DNA of 22,683 nucleotides from a virus: IMG/VR virus record IMGVR_UViG_3300017706_000426, positions 1 to 22,683 of that record. The stretch is one strand, 5' to 3'. Each line of letters opens with the position of its first letter. The first letter of the stretch is position 1. The position numbers and the translations under genes are program-made. Shown in pieces: positions 436 through 18,104 of the stretch. The notes under the pieces are model-generated. The model made no database searches, had not been told where the DNA came from, and was given only the letters and a program-made list of their open reading frames with translations.

Positions 436-1644
436 ATGGACCACTCAATAATCAAGAGCCTTCTTAGAAAGGACTTTTACGAGCAGAACAAGACCCGACT
501 CAAGGCGTCTCTTTTCGAAGATGAGGTACGAGACCTCTACAATGTAATCACAGAAGCCCATGATAGGTACGACCATGACTTATGCTCCAACGAACTAAAC
601 CTCCTATACGAGCAGCAACACCCGGTAGCCACTAGAGCTGAGAAAGAAGTTGTTGCAGATCTTATTTGTCGTATTTCTCAATCGTCAGACATATCCACTG
701 AAGTGGCTTCGGATATACTATTAGATCTGTATCGTAAGACAGAAGGCCTGAAGATAGCTAACCACGGCATATCTATTTCTGAAGGTCGCTTCGATGCATT
801 GGAAGAAGTTAAAAACCTGATCAGTAAGATCGATGAGGACTTTGAGCCTGACGATCTACCCCAGCCCTGCCGCTTAACTGTTGATGAATTAATGGCTACG
901 GCGAGTGACGCCAACCGCTGGCAATTTAATATCCCTACGTTGTCTCGGCACGTTTATGGCATTGGGCCGGGGGAGTTTATGGTGGTGTTTGCCCTATCTA
1001 ATGTTGGCAAATCTGCCTTTGGCATCAGCCTATGCTTTGCGCCCGGAGGTTTTGTTAGCCAAGGAGCAAAGTGCATGATCGTAGGTAATGAAGAGGTTGT
1101 AGCTCGCACCCGACTACGTGCCATGATTGCCTACACCGGAGTGAGCGCCCGACAGATAGCGGATGGCAAGGGCGTTGAGGTGCAGAATACGTTTGCTGAG
1201 ATCGAAGACAAAGTTGAGTTTATAGACGCCCAAGGTCTGGATCTAAATACGATAGAAGCCTGCATAAAACGCTTTGAGCCAGACGTTGTAATTGTCGATG
1301 TAGCCGACAAGATCGTTATACCCGGCAATTTTAATGCCGGGCACGAGCGCTTGAGAGCCTTGTATGTTCGTCTGCGTGAAACCGCCAAGACTTATAATTG
1401 TATGTTGCTGGGGGTTAGCCAAGCCAGCGCCGAAGCCCATAACAGAACAATCCTGCCCTTTACTATGATGGAGAACTCTAAAATTGGTAAAGCCTCGGAA
1501 GCTGATTTAATCTGTGGCATTGGGGCCTACGATGATCCTGATGATAATACCCGGTATCTAAGCATTTCTAAAAATAAGTTAAACGGTTGGCATGGTACCG
1601 AAGCAGTTCAACTCCAAACGGAGGTTAACCGCTATGTCGCTTAA
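436..1644 (+). CDS. DnaB-type (SF4) replicative helicase
   Basis: This is a RecA-fold hexameric helicase that would unwind the phage replication fork ahead of the polymerase encoded next. The Walker A motif is Ala-x4-Gly-Lys-Ser at residues 186-193 (ALSNVGKS). Walker B is the hydrophobic run ending in Asp at 283-291 (DVVIVDVAD), and the sensor-like LLGVSQAS at 324-331 supplies the conserved Gln. The N-terminal 150 residues are helical and charged, fitting a DnaB-like N-domain, and contain no zinc finger or TOPRIM primase motif, so unlike T7 gp4 this is not a primase-helicase fusion. At 402 residues it is a little short for DnaB. AAGGTG lies six bases before the ATG. Its end overlaps the polymerase start by 11 bases, indicating coupled translation. 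A RecA-like recombinase is a less likely alternative. Confidence 0.85.
   Translation: MDHSIIKSLLRKDFYEQNKTRLKASLFEDEVRDLYNVITEAHDRYDHDLCSNELNLLYEQQHPVATRAEKEVVADLICRISQSSDISTEVASDILLDLYRKTEGLKIANHGISISEGRFDALEEVKNLISKIDEDFEPDDLPQPCRLTVDELMATASDANRWQFNIPTLSRHVYGIGPGEFMVVFALSNVGKSAFGISLCFAPGGFVSQGAKCMIVGNEEVVARTRLRAMIAYTGVSARQIADGKGVEVQNTFAEIEDKVEFIDAQGLDLNTIEACIKRFEPDVVIVDVADKIVIPGNFNAGHERLRALYVRLRETAKTYNCMLLGVSQASAEAHNRTILPFTMMENSKIGKASEADLICGIGAYDDPDDNTRYLSISKNKLNGWHGTEAVQLQTEVNRYVA
1620..1624 (+). promoter_or_regulatory. Ribosome binding site that fixes the polymerase start
   Basis: GGAGG lies nine bases before the ATG at 1634, inside the last codons of the helicase gene. It favours that ATG over the in-frame ATG 42 bases upstream, which has no such site and would add 14 residues unrelated to the family. 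Confidence 0.75.
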
Positions 1645-3748
1645 TGTACTTACCCTCGATGGAGAGACCACCACACGTAAGTTAGGCGATAAGCACGACA
1701 ATAGCCCAATGAACCCGAATAATAAGTGCGTGGGCATGTGGTTTAAAAAGAATGATGCCCCGGTACAAGGTCTGGTATTCTATCACGCTGAAAAGGATGT
1801 ACCGGACGATCCTGCCCCTCTTGTGGAAGCACTAAAATGGGCGGATGTGATTGTCTGCCACAATGCCAAATTCGATATAATGTGGTTAACCCAGATGGGT
1901 TTTACCATACCGCCTAAAGTATTCTGCACGATGATAGCTCAGTATATTTATGCCCGAGGCCAGATCCAAGAAAAGTTTAGTTTAGAAAAGGTGGCTGAGA
2001 AGCGGGATGTAACTCGAAAAAAGAGTGAGCTGGTGTCTCAGATGTTTAAAGACGGAACAGGGTTTGATCAGATGCCCCTGCATATCGTCGATGAGTATGC
2101 AATCGCTGACGTTCAATCGACCTACGAAATATACCTGCAGCAAGTGGCCGAGCTAGAGCTGCCAAAGAACAAACCCCTAAAGCCTATCTTTGATCTGATG
2201 AACGAAATGCTCATGTTTCTCGTGGAGATCGAAACCAATGGAATTAGAATAGACCGGCAAGTTTTATCTGATGTTGAGGTTAAGTTTAAGACTGAGAAAG
2301 CCAAGCTCGAGAATGATCTATCTCGGATCATTGAAGAAGTTATGGGAGATACCCCTATCAACTTAAATAGTGGGGCTGACATGACTAAAGTGGTTTACTC
2401 ACGGCAAGTCATAGATCGAAAACAGTATGTGGATGTATGGAACATAGGCCTTGATGCTCGAGGTAAGCCTAAAATTATGTACCCCATGAGCGATAGTAAG
2501 TTCGCCCGTTTAGTTCGGGAGAATACTCAAAAGATCTACCGGACGGTGGCGCATTGCTGCACTGAATGTAGTGGATCTGGCCGCATCAGAAAAATTAAGA
2601 AGGATGGTACGCCATTTAAACAAACAAACGTATGCCCGGTCTGTGCTGGTGCTGGAGCCATTTACGTGCCTACTAATAAAGTAGCGGGGCTCAAGCTATC
2701 CCCGGTGGATTCGTCCTACGTGTCGATCAATGGATTCAAAACGAATAAGGAGACAATTAAAAAGCTGCTCCTGCAAGCTCAGAACAAGGATAATCTGCAG
2801 GCGGTAGAGTTTCTTACCAAGATGACTCGCCTTAATGCAGTCAGCACGTACTTGGATAGTTTTATCAAAGGCATCCAAACCTACTGCCGAGACACTGGCC
2901 TACTCCACTCCAGCTTTAATCAGACCACTACTGCTACGGGTCGCTTGTCTTCTACCAATCCTAACTTCCAAAACTTACCCAAGGGCAATAAATTTGAGGT
3001 ACGCCGGGCTATTGTCAGCCGGTTTGGTCCAGAAAATTTTATCTGCGAAGCCGACTTCAGCGGCCTTGAATTTAGAGTGGCTGGCGAGCTTAGTCGAGAT
3101 CCGCAGATCATCGAAGACGTTTTAAACGGTAAAGACGTTCATAGTCAGACAGCCTCGATTATTCACCAAAAGCCTGCCAGCGAGGTGACTAAAGACGAGA
3201 GAGGTGCGGCGAAGGCTATGACGTTCCAGCCGTTATATGGCGGGATGGGAAAAGGTTTAGAGCCGCACTTACGACAATACTTTGATTCCTATTTTGATAT
3301 TTATAAGGGCTTGGCTAAGTGGCATAGCGCCTTGGCGGATGAGGTGCTGGAGAAGGGTTATATACAGACCCCTAGCGGTCGGCAATTTGCTTTCCCCAAT
3401 GCAAAACGGCTGCGGGGCGGTCGGGTGTCTAATCATACACAATTGGTTAATTATCCCTGCCAATCCTTTGCCACGGCGGATGCGGTGCCCTTGGCGTGTA
3501 TCCGGGCATTACGGGCCTTCAAGGAACGAGACCTTAAATCAAAAATTGTACTGACCGTGCACGATTCTATCGTTTGTGACGTGGTTAAAGAGGAGCTGCC
3601 ACAAGTCAAGGAAGCTTTAAAATGGGCCATGGTTGGTGTGGCGGATGAAATGAAGGAGCGGTTTAACTACGATACAATTCTCCCTCTCGATATTGAAATC
3701 GCAATTGGGCCAAATTGGATGGAAATAGATGAGATCAGTGTTGACTGA
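1634..3748 (+). CDS. polA: Family A DNA polymerase with DnaJ-type zinc-finger insertion
   Basis: This is the replicative DNA polymerase (704 aa). The proofreading exonuclease shows Asp9/Glu11 (DGET), HNAKFD at 76-81 and YAIAD at 155-159, the DEDDy set. The polymerase shows the TGRLSS motif near residue 435, motif A with Asp474 (DFSGLEFR), motif B Arg523-x3-Lys527-x3-Phe531-x2-LeuTyrGly, and motif C VHDS with Asp644. Between the domains, in what should be the thumb region, are CTECSGSG (from Cys309) and CPVCAGAG (from Cys334): two CxxCxGxG repeats as in the DnaJ zinc centre. I recall this fusion as characteristic of HMO-2011-type marine phages. Motif C has Ser where Glu is usual (HDE). Phe531 matches E. 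coli Pol I Phe762. There is no 5'-3' exonuclease domain. The gene overlaps the helicase, and a promoter for the next genes overlaps its stop. Confidence 0.95.
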   Translation: MSLNVLTLDGETTTRKLGDKHDNSPMNPNNKCVGMWFKKNDAPVQGLVFYHAEKDVPDDPAPLVEALKWADVIVCHNAKFDIMWLTQMGFTIPPKVFCTMIAQYIYARGQIQEKFSLEKVAEKRDVTRKKSELVSQMFKDGTGFDQMPLHIVDEYAIADVQSTYEIYLQQVAELELPKNKPLKPIFDLMNEMLMFLVEIETNGIRIDRQVLSDVEVKFKTEKAKLENDLSRIIEEVMGDTPINLNSGADMTKVVYSRQVIDRKQYVDVWNIGLDARGKPKIMYPMSDSKFARLVRENTQKIYRTVAHCCTECSGSGRIRKIKKDGTPFKQTNVCPVCAGAGAIYVPTNKVAGLKLSPVDSSYVSINGFKTNKETIKKLLLQAQNKDNLQAVEFLTKMTRLNAVSTYLDSFIKGIQTYCRDTGLLHSSFNQTTTATGRLSSTNPNFQNLPKGNKFEVRRAIVSRFGPENFICEADFSGLEFRVAGELSRDPQIIEDVLNGKDVHSQTASIIHQKPASEVTKDERGAAKAMTFQPLYGGMGKGLEPHLRQYFDSYFDIYKGLAKWHSALADEVLEKGYIQTPSGRQFAFPNAKRLRGGRVSNHTQLVNYPCQSFATADAVPLACIRALRAFKERDLKSKIVLTVHDSIVCDVVKEELPQVKEALKWAMVGVADEMKERFNYDTILPLDIEIAIGPNWMEIDEISVD

Positions 3749-3796: not shown

Positions 3797-4660
3797 ATGG
3801 GCGAGTTAATGTATCACACTGATATGAGCATGGATCAAATGAGATCTATGATGGGAACCAGCGACAGGCCGCTAAAACAAAATTCCCAGCCTAATAATAG
3901 ATTACCGGAATTGAAGATCAGCTCTCAGCGGAAAGATGAATCCGGTAATGACATTAAAAAACACATGGGCGAGTTCTATGTGAAAGGGCTGGGTGAACCT
4001 GTGTACGCTAAGAGTGTAAGGGTTAGGGTTCTGTCGCAGCTTTATCAGTGGGTAGATTTTGATGAAGAGCAGATGCGACCCCGTAATAAAACGATAATGA
4101 TACCGTTTTTAAATATGGAGCCTCGAGATGAGCTAGGCACTATACGCTGCGGTAAACCCCTGACGAAGGACATGGCGGATTGGCCGAAAGCTAAGAAGGC
4201 CCAATACGATTCAATTAATCTGTTTAGGCAGCTACGTGGCTTGGTTACCTACGAAGGCCAAACCGCAGATGGTAAAACTGTGTCGATAGAAAACCAGCCG
4301 TGCATTATTATGAATAAGCGCAGCTCGTACATGAAGTTTGAGCAAGGCGTTATCTCCAGAATTAATGGCCGGGAGTTCAGCGACTACTGGCTCGATGTTA
4401 CGTCCGAAGAACAAGAGATGGGGTCCGTGGTTTATTATACGTGGAAGTATACCCCAGATCTTAAAAACCCCGTGAGTATGGATGATGATACCGAAGCCAC
4501 ATTAGTCGAGATTGCTCGAATGGTGGTGGAAGAGAATGTCAGAATTGAAAATTCGTATAAGAAAAACCGGCAGAACTACGAACTGAATGACGAGGCCTTA
4601 AAAGCTTTGAAATCAGTCGAAGCTGACCTTGATGCAGACCTTGTAGACTTACCAGATTAA
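3797..4660 (+). CDS. Putative single-stranded DNA-binding protein
   Basis: I do not recognise this 287-residue sequence by family motif. Three things suggest a ssDNA-binding protein. It sits between the DNA polymerase and recombination nucleases, where T7-like phages carry gp2.5. Its central part (about 55-210) is rich in alternating beta-type segments with aromatic and basic residues, as in an OB fold. It ends in an acidic tail (Asp-Ala-Asp-Leu-Val-Asp-Leu-Pro-Asp) of the kind SSBs use to recruit partners. The N-terminal 50 residues are Met/Gln/Asn/Lys-rich and probably disordered. A strong AAGGAG lies before the ATG and the gene has its own promoter, consistent with the high dose a ssDNA-binding protein needs. 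The stop shares a base with the next start (TAATG). A general unknown replication protein is the alternative. Confidence 0.45.
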   Translation: MGELMYHTDMSMDQMRSMMGTSDRPLKQNSQPNNRLPELKISSQRKDESGNDIKKHMGEFYVKGLGEPVYAKSVRVRVLSQLYQWVDFDEEQMRPRNKTIMIPFLNMEPRDELGTIRCGKPLTKDMADWPKAKKAQYDSINLFRQLRGLVTYEGQTADGKTVSIENQPCIIMNKRSSYMKFEQGVISRINGREFSDYWLDVTSEEQEMGSVVYYTWKYTPDLKNPVSMDDDTEATLVEIARMVVEENVRIENSYKKNRQNYELNDEALKALKSVEADLDADLVDLPD

Positions 4661-15453: not shown

Positions 15454-15618
15454 TTATTCTTCTTCCTTTTCGATTTCACCCGTGAGTTGCTCTTCAAGCT
15501 CATCAAAATAATCAGGGGTGTAGACTAGGCCACCTTCCTTCAATCCATTGGAGTTGATAGGCAGTTTACCGTCAAGAAACCGCTTCACTGACTTCACTAC
15601 TGCGTGTTCAAACTTCAT
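15454..15618 (-). CDS. Small hypothetical protein (54 aa)
   Basis: This short gene fills what would otherwise be a gap in the late operon. It starts 11 bases inside the end of the S74-domain gene and stops immediately before the next ATG (TAAATG). The N-terminus is basic (MKFEHAVVKSVKRFLDGK), the middle has Gly and Tyr, and the C-terminus is acidic (DELEEQLTGEIEKEEE). GGGATG lies seven bases before the ATG. I know no family. Exact fit between two genes and a plausible ribosome site support it. Confidence 0.65.
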   Translation of the reverse strand: MKFEHAVVKSVKRFLDGKLPINSNGLKEGGLVYTPDYFDELEEQLTGEIEKEEE

Positions 15619-17860
15619 TGTTTATCATCCCGTAATTAACCTTCAGATAACCGTCCTCGCCTTGTGTTACGGCGTGTGGATGTGTTTTCAGGACTTCTTG
15701 GGCCAATACACCAATGCTAGGATGCTGGTCTGCGCCTAGTGCCTTGCCCTTATCGTTCCAATCCCAAGTGTAATAATTCACACCATCAACGGTATCGTAA
15801 TGCTCAATATTTTCTTTCAATCGAATGTCGGAGAACCAACTCATCACATCGATTTCTAATGGCCCATCATCAAATGGATTAAGGTCAATATCGCCCTCAA
15901 GAACATTTTCCACTGAATCTACCAGATCTATTTCAAGAGCTTCACCGGCCCCAAATGGATTAGCGTCTAAAGCCTCTAAGGCTGCCACGGCTGCGATAGT
16001 GGCTGTAACAGGGTTAGCCACAGCAAAAGCACCTAAGTTAGCTAAGACGCCACCACTACCTGCCGTTCCTGCCGCTGTTCCGGTGGCTGCAGCCGCTGTT
16101 CCGGTGGTTGCAGCCGCTGTTCCGGTGGTTGCCCCACCAGTAAAGACGCTCGTGACTCCACTGATTAAATCTCCTGCCCCTCCAATTAAGTCTATGCCAT
16201 CCCCATCGCCAATACCTACAGCGCCTAGTGCGGAGTTTAATCCGTCCATTACAGTGCCGTATGTTGAAGTCACTCCGTCTCTATATATAGAAGCGGTTAA
16301 GGCTGTACCCGCCAGACCAATAAGGGCTGTCATAGTTTCACTCATACCGCCACCCGCTTCGGAAGCGGCTTGCGCTCTAATTCCTGCCATTAGGATATTA
16401 GCGTCACGATCAGCATCGGAGTTGTAATTATTTACTGTGTGATCCAGTAGACTATCTACCCTATCCCACATTTGATTCATCGCCTCTTGGCTAAGATCCA
16501 ATCCATTACGAACATCTTCTGTGGCAGCATCAAACTCCATTTCTGTGTTTGTCTCGGCTACGGATTGCCGCCATTGAGCATTATCGGAGTCAATTTGATA
16601 CTGCATATCTGAGTAATATTTCTGCCGACTGTCTTCCATATCGGCCTCAAACTCAGCGCCATCATTTAATTCTCCGGCATTAAACCTTTTAATTTGATTA
16701 AGCTGCTCAGAACGATGCATTTGAATATTAGCATTCAGATTGTCGTAGTACTTTGTGAAGTCGTTTTCTTGCTCTACATCAAAGCGTCTAGCCACGTTTG
16801 TTTCGGCGGCATCTGAAAGCATTACGTCTATACGTTCTTGGGTATTAATAATCTCGGCTTCTTGCTCCAAGTCTAAGTTCTTTAAATCCATTTGCAGAAA
16901 GGCATCGGCATTGTTCACCGCCGCAGTTTCCCTCGCCCCTAGATTAGCTGTCTCAAATTTAGCCAAAGTTTGCGCTTTGTTAATAATCGACTCTTGGCGG
17001 TTGTCTAAATTCTCCGTAGTCAGCGTTTGAAAGAAAGACGCCTCATCCTTGGATATGCCTATCGTTGCTTCCATAATAGCGTTTGCCATCGCTGCAGTTG
17101 CTGCAGTACCGCTTATCCCATCGAAGGCTATGGTACGTTTTAACATACGAGCGGTAGATTGCGCCCACGGCGGGATAACAGGCTCACCCGTATCTGGGTC
17201 TTTAAATTGGCGGCTGATGATTTCCATCTGACCAGCAATTGTCGCCTTGGCGTCCGTATAGTTACCCTCTCCCAGTTCTTCTGCAAGTAAGCGCCCAGAC
17301 GTTGTAGAGGTATCGATAATCGTGGAGAAGTTTTGAGAAGCGTATTGGTTTAGGGCAGCACCGGTCTGGTTAACTGTACCATCTTCATTAACCCCTGAAG
17401 CTACCGCATCAATGTCAATTTCTATATCACTGGCGTCTATAAGCGCATTAGAATCCTCAGTAATCTCACCCTGCGCTGCATTTACCGTAGTTTCTGGAGT
17501 TCCTAAATCCTCTAAAACAGTCTCAACATTATCTGAGTAACCTGCCGCATCGGGAATATCAGTAATCTCGTCTGCTAATGTAACATCTTCTTCAGCCACA
17601 GTATTTGTATTATCTATGACCAGATCATCCCCTAGCTCATAGCGCTCATCAGTAGCATCAAGATTTGTTCCCGTAGCGTCAGGATCTAATTCAGTATAAT
17701 TATCACTTACCAACAGATCATTATCAGTCAAAAACGTATTAGGATCATCGGCCAAGGACTGTATATCAGTATCCTGAGCAGTCATGCCAACGTCATCCAT
17801 AGCACCGTCGAGATCGAAGATGTCTTCGTCCGAGTCGATTGTCACATCATCTTCAGCCAT
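15608..17860 (-). CDS. Large late protein with C-terminal S74 chaperone/autoprotease domain
   Basis: The 750-residue protein has three parts. The first 170 residues are extremely acidic (Asp/Thr/Ile/Glu, almost no Lys). The middle (about 180-500) is helical and Gln/Asn/Glu-rich with coiled-coil character. A Gly/Ala/Thr-rich region includes a repeated ATTGTAA. The last 74 residues are a Peptidase S74 domain: Ser677-Asp-Ile-Arg-Leu-Lys682, then YYTWDWN, IGVLAQEV and GYLKVNYG. S74 domains fold trimeric fibres and then cut themselves off using the Ser and Lys. The usual helical end of the domain is almost absent, as the protein stops seven residues after the final Tyr. I chose the ATG with AAAGGGA eight bases upstream, which overlaps the spanin stop. 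It may be a fibre, spike or internal protein; the S74 call is firm, the role is not. Confidence 0.75.
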   Translation of the reverse strand: MAEDDVTIDSDEDIFDLDGAMDDVGMTAQDTDIQSLADDPNTFLTDNDLLVSDNYTELDPDATGTNLDATDERYELGDDLVIDNTNTVAEEDVTLADEITDIPDAAGYSDNVETVLEDLGTPETTVNAAQGEITEDSNALIDASDIEIDIDAVASGVNEDGTVNQTGAALNQYASQNFSTIIDTSTTSGRLLAEELGEGNYTDAKATIAGQMEIISRQFKDPDTGEPVIPPWAQSTARMLKRTIAFDGISGTAATAAMANAIMEATIGISKDEASFFQTLTTENLDNRQESIINKAQTLAKFETANLGARETAAVNNADAFLQMDLKNLDLEQEAEIINTQERIDVMLSDAAETNVARRFDVEQENDFTKYYDNLNANIQMHRSEQLNQIKRFNAGELNDGAEFEADMEDSRQKYYSDMQYQIDSDNAQWRQSVAETNTEMEFDAATEDVRNGLDLSQEAMNQMWDRVDSLLDHTVNNYNSDADRDANILMAGIRAQAASEAGGGMSETMTALIGLAGTALTASIYRDGVTSTYGTVMDGLNSALGAVGIGDGDGIDLIGGAGDLISGVTSVFTGGATTGTAAATTGTAAAATGTAAGTAGSGGVLANLGAFAVANPVTATIAAVAALEALDANPFGAGEALEIDLVDSVENVLEGDIDLNPFDDGPLEIDVMSWFSDIRLKENIEHYDTVDGVNYYTWDWNDKGKALGADQHPSIGVLAQEVLKTHPHAVTQGEDGYLKVNYGMINNEV
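16071..16132 (-). repeat. Three 21-bp tandem repeats in the S74-domain gene
   Basis: The unit GCCGCTGTTCCGGTGGTTGCA (21 bases) is repeated three times head to tail with one mismatch between the first and second copies and a changed last base in the third. On the coding strand it encodes the seven-residue repeat Ala-Thr-Thr-Gly-Thr-Ala-Ala. Copy number may vary by slippage without breaking the frame. Confidence 0.9.
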
Positions 17861-18104
17861 TAATATTATCCCTTTCGGCTTCGCACCGTCTGATACGATC
17901 ACGTAAGTAAATGTAGTTTTTCATCGCTTCCTCTATCGCCCGACTGTCAGGGGGAAGAGCTTCGATTTCATCTGCTAATTGATTGTTGAAGCTGTCGCTG
18001 TACTGCGCCATAGACGGGCAGTAGACCTCAAGCTGCGTTCTATAGACCGTTGTTACGCAGCCGGTCAGTGACAGAGCTACGATCAGTAAGAGTATCGTTC
18101 TCAT
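17853..18104 (-). CDS. Rz1: Outer-membrane spanin subunit (Rz1-like lipoprotein)
   Basis: The 83-residue product has a short signal peptide (MRTILLLIVALS) and a lipobox Leu13-Thr-Gly-Cys16, so the mature protein should be lipidated at Cys16 and anchored in the outer membrane. The periplasmic part contains ALPPDS and a helical C-terminus. In lambda-type lysis the Rz1 lipoprotein joins the inner-membrane Rz protein to fuse the two membranes once peptidoglycan has been cut. The start lies inside the Rz-like gene in another frame, an overlap of 65 bases, and the end overlaps the S74-domain gene by eight bases. Sequence conservation in spanins is low, so the call rests on lipobox, size and position. 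Confidence 0.8.
   Translation of the reverse strand: MRTILLLIVALSLTGCVTTVYRTQLEVYCPSMAQYSDSFNNQLADEIEALPPDSRAIEEAMKNYIYLRDRIRRCEAERDNING
17869..17875 (-). promoter_or_regulatory. Ribosome binding site that fixes the S74-protein start
   Basis: AAAGGGA lies eight bases before the ATG at 17860 within the last codons of the Rz1-like gene. It supports that ATG over an in-frame start 42 bases upstream, which lies wholly inside the spanin gene and would add a non-acidic stretch unlike the rest of the N-terminus. Confidence 0.7.

Follow-up and report, generated by a model that had tools for sequence, protein, structure and literature searches.

A basic thumb insert with a DnaJ-type zinc-site sequence in the family A DNA polymerase of an HMO-2011-type marine phage

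HMO-2011-type phages are a dominant and widespread group of marine viruses (PMC9038755). Their DNA polymerases have been described as carrying part of a DnaJ (central) domain at the junction of the exonuclease and polymerase domains, where the CXXCXGXG motif occurs twice (PMC6918029, PMC9038755, PMC8528129), and in two of these three papers the partial domain serves as a criterion for the group. No functional test of the zinc module was found in the literature on HMO-2011-type polymerases. Two other family A polymerases are of interest for comparison. T7 DNA polymerase, also a phage PolA replicase, has an extra module in its thumb, the thioredoxin-binding domain, and Pol theta has a basic thumb insertion, loop 1, that strengthens DNA binding (PMC9841435).

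The window, i.e., the whole stretch of DNA analysed here, is a virus record of 22,683 bases. The product of its polA gene, P0001 (Table 1), matches PF00476 (8.8e-64), PF01612 (2.4e-8) and PHROG 17, and Q-like PHROG matches were also found; with Foldseek the whole AlphaFold2 model displays a Pol I fold. An in-frame ATG is present upstream of polA at position 1592, and a start there would create a larger overlap with the helicase gene. The closest isolates are the Roseobacter phages CRP-3 (64% identity) and CRP-212 (63%), and identity to the polymerase of phage HMO-2011 is 40%. A tree calculated with the insert columns removed joins the window polymerase to that of CRP-3 (support 100/99). HMO-2011, CRP-1, CRP-2, CRP-3 and Pelagibacter phage HTVC033P show the same replication-gene order, the insert and the two motifs. 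Nothing essential differs between the window and these HMO-2011-type phages, and it represents a new sequence nearest to CRP-3 and CRP-212. The window derives from part of the genome of an HMO-2011-type marine phage, and the link to such phages, which the first-pass annotation had made, is borne out by the published partial domain and the identity to CRP-3. The zinc module is thus already known as a hallmark of the group; the thumb H1-H2 site and the basic charge are new.

Table 1. Features of the polymerase locus, with positions in the window
Feature	Position	Strand	Evidence
DnaB-like replicative helicase, adjoins polA on the upstream side	436..1644	+	PHROG 19, 4.6e-47
Family A DNA polymerase polA, P0001, 704 aa	1634..3748	+	Pfam, PHROG, CRP-3 identity
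3'-5' exonuclease domain match, aa 72-168	1847..2137	+	PF01612
Thumb helix H1, aa 247-255, after INLNS; equivalent to the E. coli helix that follows FNLSS 578	2372..2398	+	model secondary structure, alignment
Thumb insert H1-H2, aa 258-367, 110 aa	2405..2734	+	alignment, lengths, charge
Stem strand ahead of putative zinc module, aa 302-308	2537..2557	+	model secondary structure
First knuckle CTECSGSG, C309-G316	2558..2581	+	sequence; invariant Cys
Basic hairpin RIRKIKKDGTPFKQTNV linking the knuckles, aa 317-333	2582..2632	+	charge, conserved Lys
Second knuckle CPVCAGAG, C334-G341	2633..2656	+	sequence; invariant Cys
Return stem strand, aa 342-350	2657..2683	+	model secondary structure
Polymerase domain match, aa 366-697	2729..3724	+	PF00476
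Thumb helix H2, aa 372-384; counterpart of E. coli 608 STSEEV in the alignment	2747..2785	+	model secondary structure, alignment
Putative single-stranded DNA-binding protein, C-terminal tail acidic; adjoins polA downstream	3797..4660	+	synteny, tail charge

The first-pass annotation had placed the module between the exonuclease and polymerase domains. This description is loose, and the placement is sharpened here to the tip of the thumb: the actual site is within the thumb subdomain, between helix H1 and helix H2. Alignment with E. coli and other bacterial Pol I sequences does uphold the earlier reading of the segment as an insertion, with these enzymes as the reference. With FNLSS 578, KQGIKPL 593 and STSEEV 608 of E. 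coli Pol I as landmarks, the H1-H2 loop of that enzyme has ~14 aa (about 593-608), vs 110 in P0001; the stretch of E. coli Pol I aligned to these 110 comprises 13 residues. Support for the fold comes from the full AlphaFold2 model, which carries no metal and has a mean pLDDT of 92.4, with values of 86-94 over the zinc region. In this model the Cys module is flanked by two strands, formed by residues 302-308 and 342-350.

The extra module of T7 DNA polymerase occupies a different position. The thumb helices of T7 are H1 339-348 and H2 365-372 (PMC9198812), and the thioredoxin-binding insert stands ahead of the FNPSS motif (334) that precedes H1; thus the T7 insert is ahead of H1. It should be noted that the position given for T7 is based on the NxxS motif together with the published helix limits; MAFFT misplaced T7 in the thumb. 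A T7-type insertion lies between thumb helices H and H1, and the P0001 insert is not of this type, as it follows H1. The two modules therefore differ in that the one from T7 (aa ~263-333) is before H1 and thioredoxin-bound, whereas the one from P0001 is situated between H1 and H2 and is of the zinc type.

The two CxxCxGxG motifs are 25 residues apart, as originally noted, the distance being that from C309 to C334 in P0001. All four Cys residues are present in 101/101 related polymerases, down to ~35% identity; these are the relatives from viral contigs, phage isolates and genome bins that cover the site. P0001 has 13 Cys residues, and among 62 full-length relatives none of the other nine is invariant. 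Thus the knuckle pair, with its four Cys retained throughout and the other nine variable, is not a chance occurrence. In addition to the four Cys, G325 and G341 are conserved, and the Gly positions of the knuckles are nearly fixed, with the exception of G339 (82/101). In the hairpin, positions K320 and K322 each display Lys in 90 of the 103 alignment rows. A subgroup with CRP-738 (loci L011, L028, L033 and others) has a hairpin that is 12 residues longer, and the additional residues are mostly basic.

In DnaJ, repeats 2 and 3 constitute zinc centre II, and the pair binds one zinc ion. A profile made from 64 of the phage modules matches the E. coli DnaJ Cys-rich domain 1EXK (E = 1.6e-5) at repeats 2 and 3, in keeping with the initial proposal of a DnaJ-type zinc-site sequence, probably a single site, within PolA. 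The same profile shows weaker matches to Q antiterminators, anti-TRAP and UvrA. UvrA and Q have similar knuckle pairs and are nucleic-acid-binding proteins, but they are unrelated to PolA and the matches are weak. The Pfam DnaJ_CXXCXGXG family, PF00684, matches P0001 at the correct place but below threshold (21.2 bits vs a cut-off of 32.7), and scores of relatives are likewise under the cut-off (29.0, 26.3 and 17.6 bits). The DnaJ central domain has four CxxCxGxG repeats that bind two zinc ions, and DnaJ includes the J domain, the part of the protein that stimulates DnaK; P0001 has two repeats and a basic hairpin, and a Pfam scan gave no match to a J domain. As judged from the sequence, the module looks like one DnaJ zinc centre, but by the Pfam cut-off and the number of repeats it does not qualify as a DnaJ central domain, and the DnaJ label is valid only for the zinc-centre sequence. 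Modeling of the isolated module gave a poor structure (pTM 0.34). A Foldseek search with this poor model gave DnaJA2 as the top match (prob 0.92), followed by UvrA zinc modules, with E-values of 0.4 or worse; the rmsd of these matches, obtained with the same weak model, is mostly 1.8-2.3 A across 35-39 columns. The fold matches speak only modestly and indirectly for zinc binding. The module-only alignment was too variable to serve in a scan of the collection.

Charge sets the insert apart from the remainder of the protein. Among the 62 polymerases the insert has a mean net charge of +11.2 (range +3 to +21) and is positive in 62/62, and the hairpin between the knuckles, with a mean of +5.3, is also positive in every one. 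Means for the exonuclease and the palm/fingers in the same 62 are -9.1 and -0.1, respectively, and the insert is the only part that is consistently basic. Crosslinks to template DNA have been found in T7 DNA polymerase for the thumb peptides L346-K355 and G360-R373 (PMC9198812). In Pol theta, deletion of the basic loop 1 in the thumb raises the Kd for DNA from 29 to 138 nM, and loops of Taq and Pol I touch DNA at the site of Pol theta loop 1 (PMC9841435). Pol theta loop 1 resembles the phage insert in being a basic thumb insertion, but it is disordered and is not described as a zinc module, and its placement between H1 and H2 is from the residue numbers of the paper only.

The zinc-bearing polymerases, including those of HMO-2011 and the CRP phages, form one group in the tree (support 94/89, not starred). 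The sister clade (97/94) includes VpV262, Vibrio 1.209 and StenR_269 and has only short H1-H2 loops; thus related replicases, such as those of VpV262 and StenR_269, manage without the module. The next relatives, phiKT, LKA1, JSF7, MEP402 and ICP2, have an insert at the same place without knuckles. In a first tree Vibrio phage 1.209 had fallen among the zinc-bearing polymerases, which suggested a loss of the module. The claim was dropped because the addition of VpV262, StenR_269 and their relatives moved the 1.209 group to the sister clade. Pelagibacter phages Bylgja and HTVC120P, as well as Vibrio phage phi 3, gave weak matches, but their polymerases are devoid of knuckles and the matches were rejected as chance.

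Homologues of the gene that follows polA in the window are found in 86/87 loci with room for it, nearly always as the next gene, and encode proteins of ~285 aa. The mean net charge of the last 15 aa is -5.5, and 0.12% of the other 15-residue windows in these proteins are as acidic as the tail median. Some members end in DFDEIPF or DLEEEVPF, similar to the tips of single-stranded DNA-binding proteins (SSBs). Searches of Pfam, PHROG and PDB gave no SSB family or structure match. Given its tail, position and synteny, the gene product is plausibly an SSB, and it may interact with the basic finger. The polA of Vibrio phage VpV262 is followed by a gene (L141:4956-5651) with an R/G/N/S-rich linker and an acidic end.

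On the combined grounds of sequence, model and analogy, we consider it somewhat probable that the insert is a zinc-stapled basic finger at the tip of the thumb that holds the primer-template. The four Cys of the two DnaJ-type knuckles would bind one zinc ion, which would staple the base of a Lys-rich beta-hairpin extending from the H1-H2 loop. In other family A polymerases the primer-template duplex is contacted by the corresponding part of the thumb, and an enlarged, rigid and basic finger could add contacts to the DNA backbone. Such extra contacts may in turn provide higher DNA affinity and processivity, with no separate clamp such as thioredoxin. The finger may also take up the acidic C-terminal tail of the neighbouring SSB-like protein. 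With the placement at the thumb tip, what had been a taxonomic marker gives rise to a testable hypothesis, that of a self-contained processivity finger; if true, the finger would be comparable to the T7 thioredoxin clamp, at a different site.

A finger that holds DNA is favoured because of the basic insert, the crosslinks of the T7 H1-H2 region and the analogy with the Pol theta loop; the constraint on the Cys residues and on G325 and G341, the modelled fold and a module of the same kind in the distant PolA of phage ctsHD2 also speak for it. The processivity contact suggested in the first-pass annotation would agree with the thumb site and the charge; docking of host proteins, its other suggestion, is more speculative. 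However the basic charge is an equally good fit to protein docking, and this counts against a DNA-holding finger, as do the weak model of the isolated module and the short H1-H2 loops of the sister clade. The hairpin could be a platform that binds the acidic tails of replisome partners, i.e., the SSB-like protein and possibly helicase/primase, with DNA contact being secondary. In T7, the thioredoxin-binding domain mediates partner contacts via basic patches. The conserved basic hairpin and the conserved acidic-tailed protein encoded next to polA agree with docking, as does the interaction of T7 gp2.5 with T7 DNA polymerase (PMC9198812). But the SSB identity of the presumed partner comes from tail, position and synteny alone, and SSB-type acidic tails are also found in phages with an insert-free polymerase: VpV262 ORF24 (L141:5973-6230), near polA, ends in DFDDDIPF. 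We regard docking as the chief role as less likely, a serious but minority alternative.

A purely structural role, in which zinc caps a long thumb insertion and the finger has neither a DNA nor a protein partner, is unlikely. The knuckle-free PolA inserts of phiKT, LKA1, JSF7, MEP402 and ICP2, with 50-131 residues, speak for it, but the invariance of the Cys residues, the basic charge and the conserved Lys suggest more than a cap. The likeness to PF00684, as well as the critical part of DnaJ in lambda replication, mentioned in PMC9038755, could also bring to mind a co-chaperone-like module, whereby a partial DnaJ domain would draw host chaperones, either DnaK/Hsp70 or others, to the replication complex. 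Such a role is very unlikely, considering that Pfam detects no J domain in the polymerase, that only two of the four repeats are present and that the same type of knuckle is found in the non-chaperones UvrA, Q and anti-TRAP.

The same kind of module is found outside of the HMO clade. The PolA of phage ctsHD2 (MW202816), with ~20% identity, contains the CxxCxGxG motif twice, at the position that aligns with the H1-H2 site. A tree with ctsHD2 and the HMO group as one clade was rejected (AU p 0.007), but the ctsHD2 branch is very long (5.65). No relatives of ctsHD2 were found in the phage and viral-contig collections searched, and a plasmid search with its module gave chance matches only. A second, independent origin of the putative zinc module in ctsHD2 is possible. 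More tentatively, the H1-H2 loop may be a recurrent slot in which a DnaJ-type zinc finger was installed at least twice independently, in the HMO-2011 clade and in ctsHD2, as a built-in processivity clamp and an alternative to the thioredoxin of T7; we give this broader reading a limited chance of being correct.

Several other observations concern polymerases and genes of related or more distant phages. In MEP402, QDWS535, VP41s3 and ICP2 (loci L016, L018, L133 and L134), PolA is encoded in two open reading frames, one for the exonuclease and thumb and the other for the palm and fingers, and in some phages with such a split a small open reading frame is present between the two halves. Stenotrophomonas phage StenR_269 has a thioredoxin-domain protein (L142:2580-2846) two genes upstream of its zinc-free PolA of the sister clade. 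An open reading frame with more than 10 consecutive CxxC-type knuckles is present in the 636-kb uncultured phage LR756504 (L138:1262-2953). In the window itself, the open reading frame at 15608-17902 on the minus strand displays SDIRLKENIEHYDTVDGVNYYTW in its C-terminus, which we take to resemble the peptidase S74 intramolecular chaperone of tail proteins.
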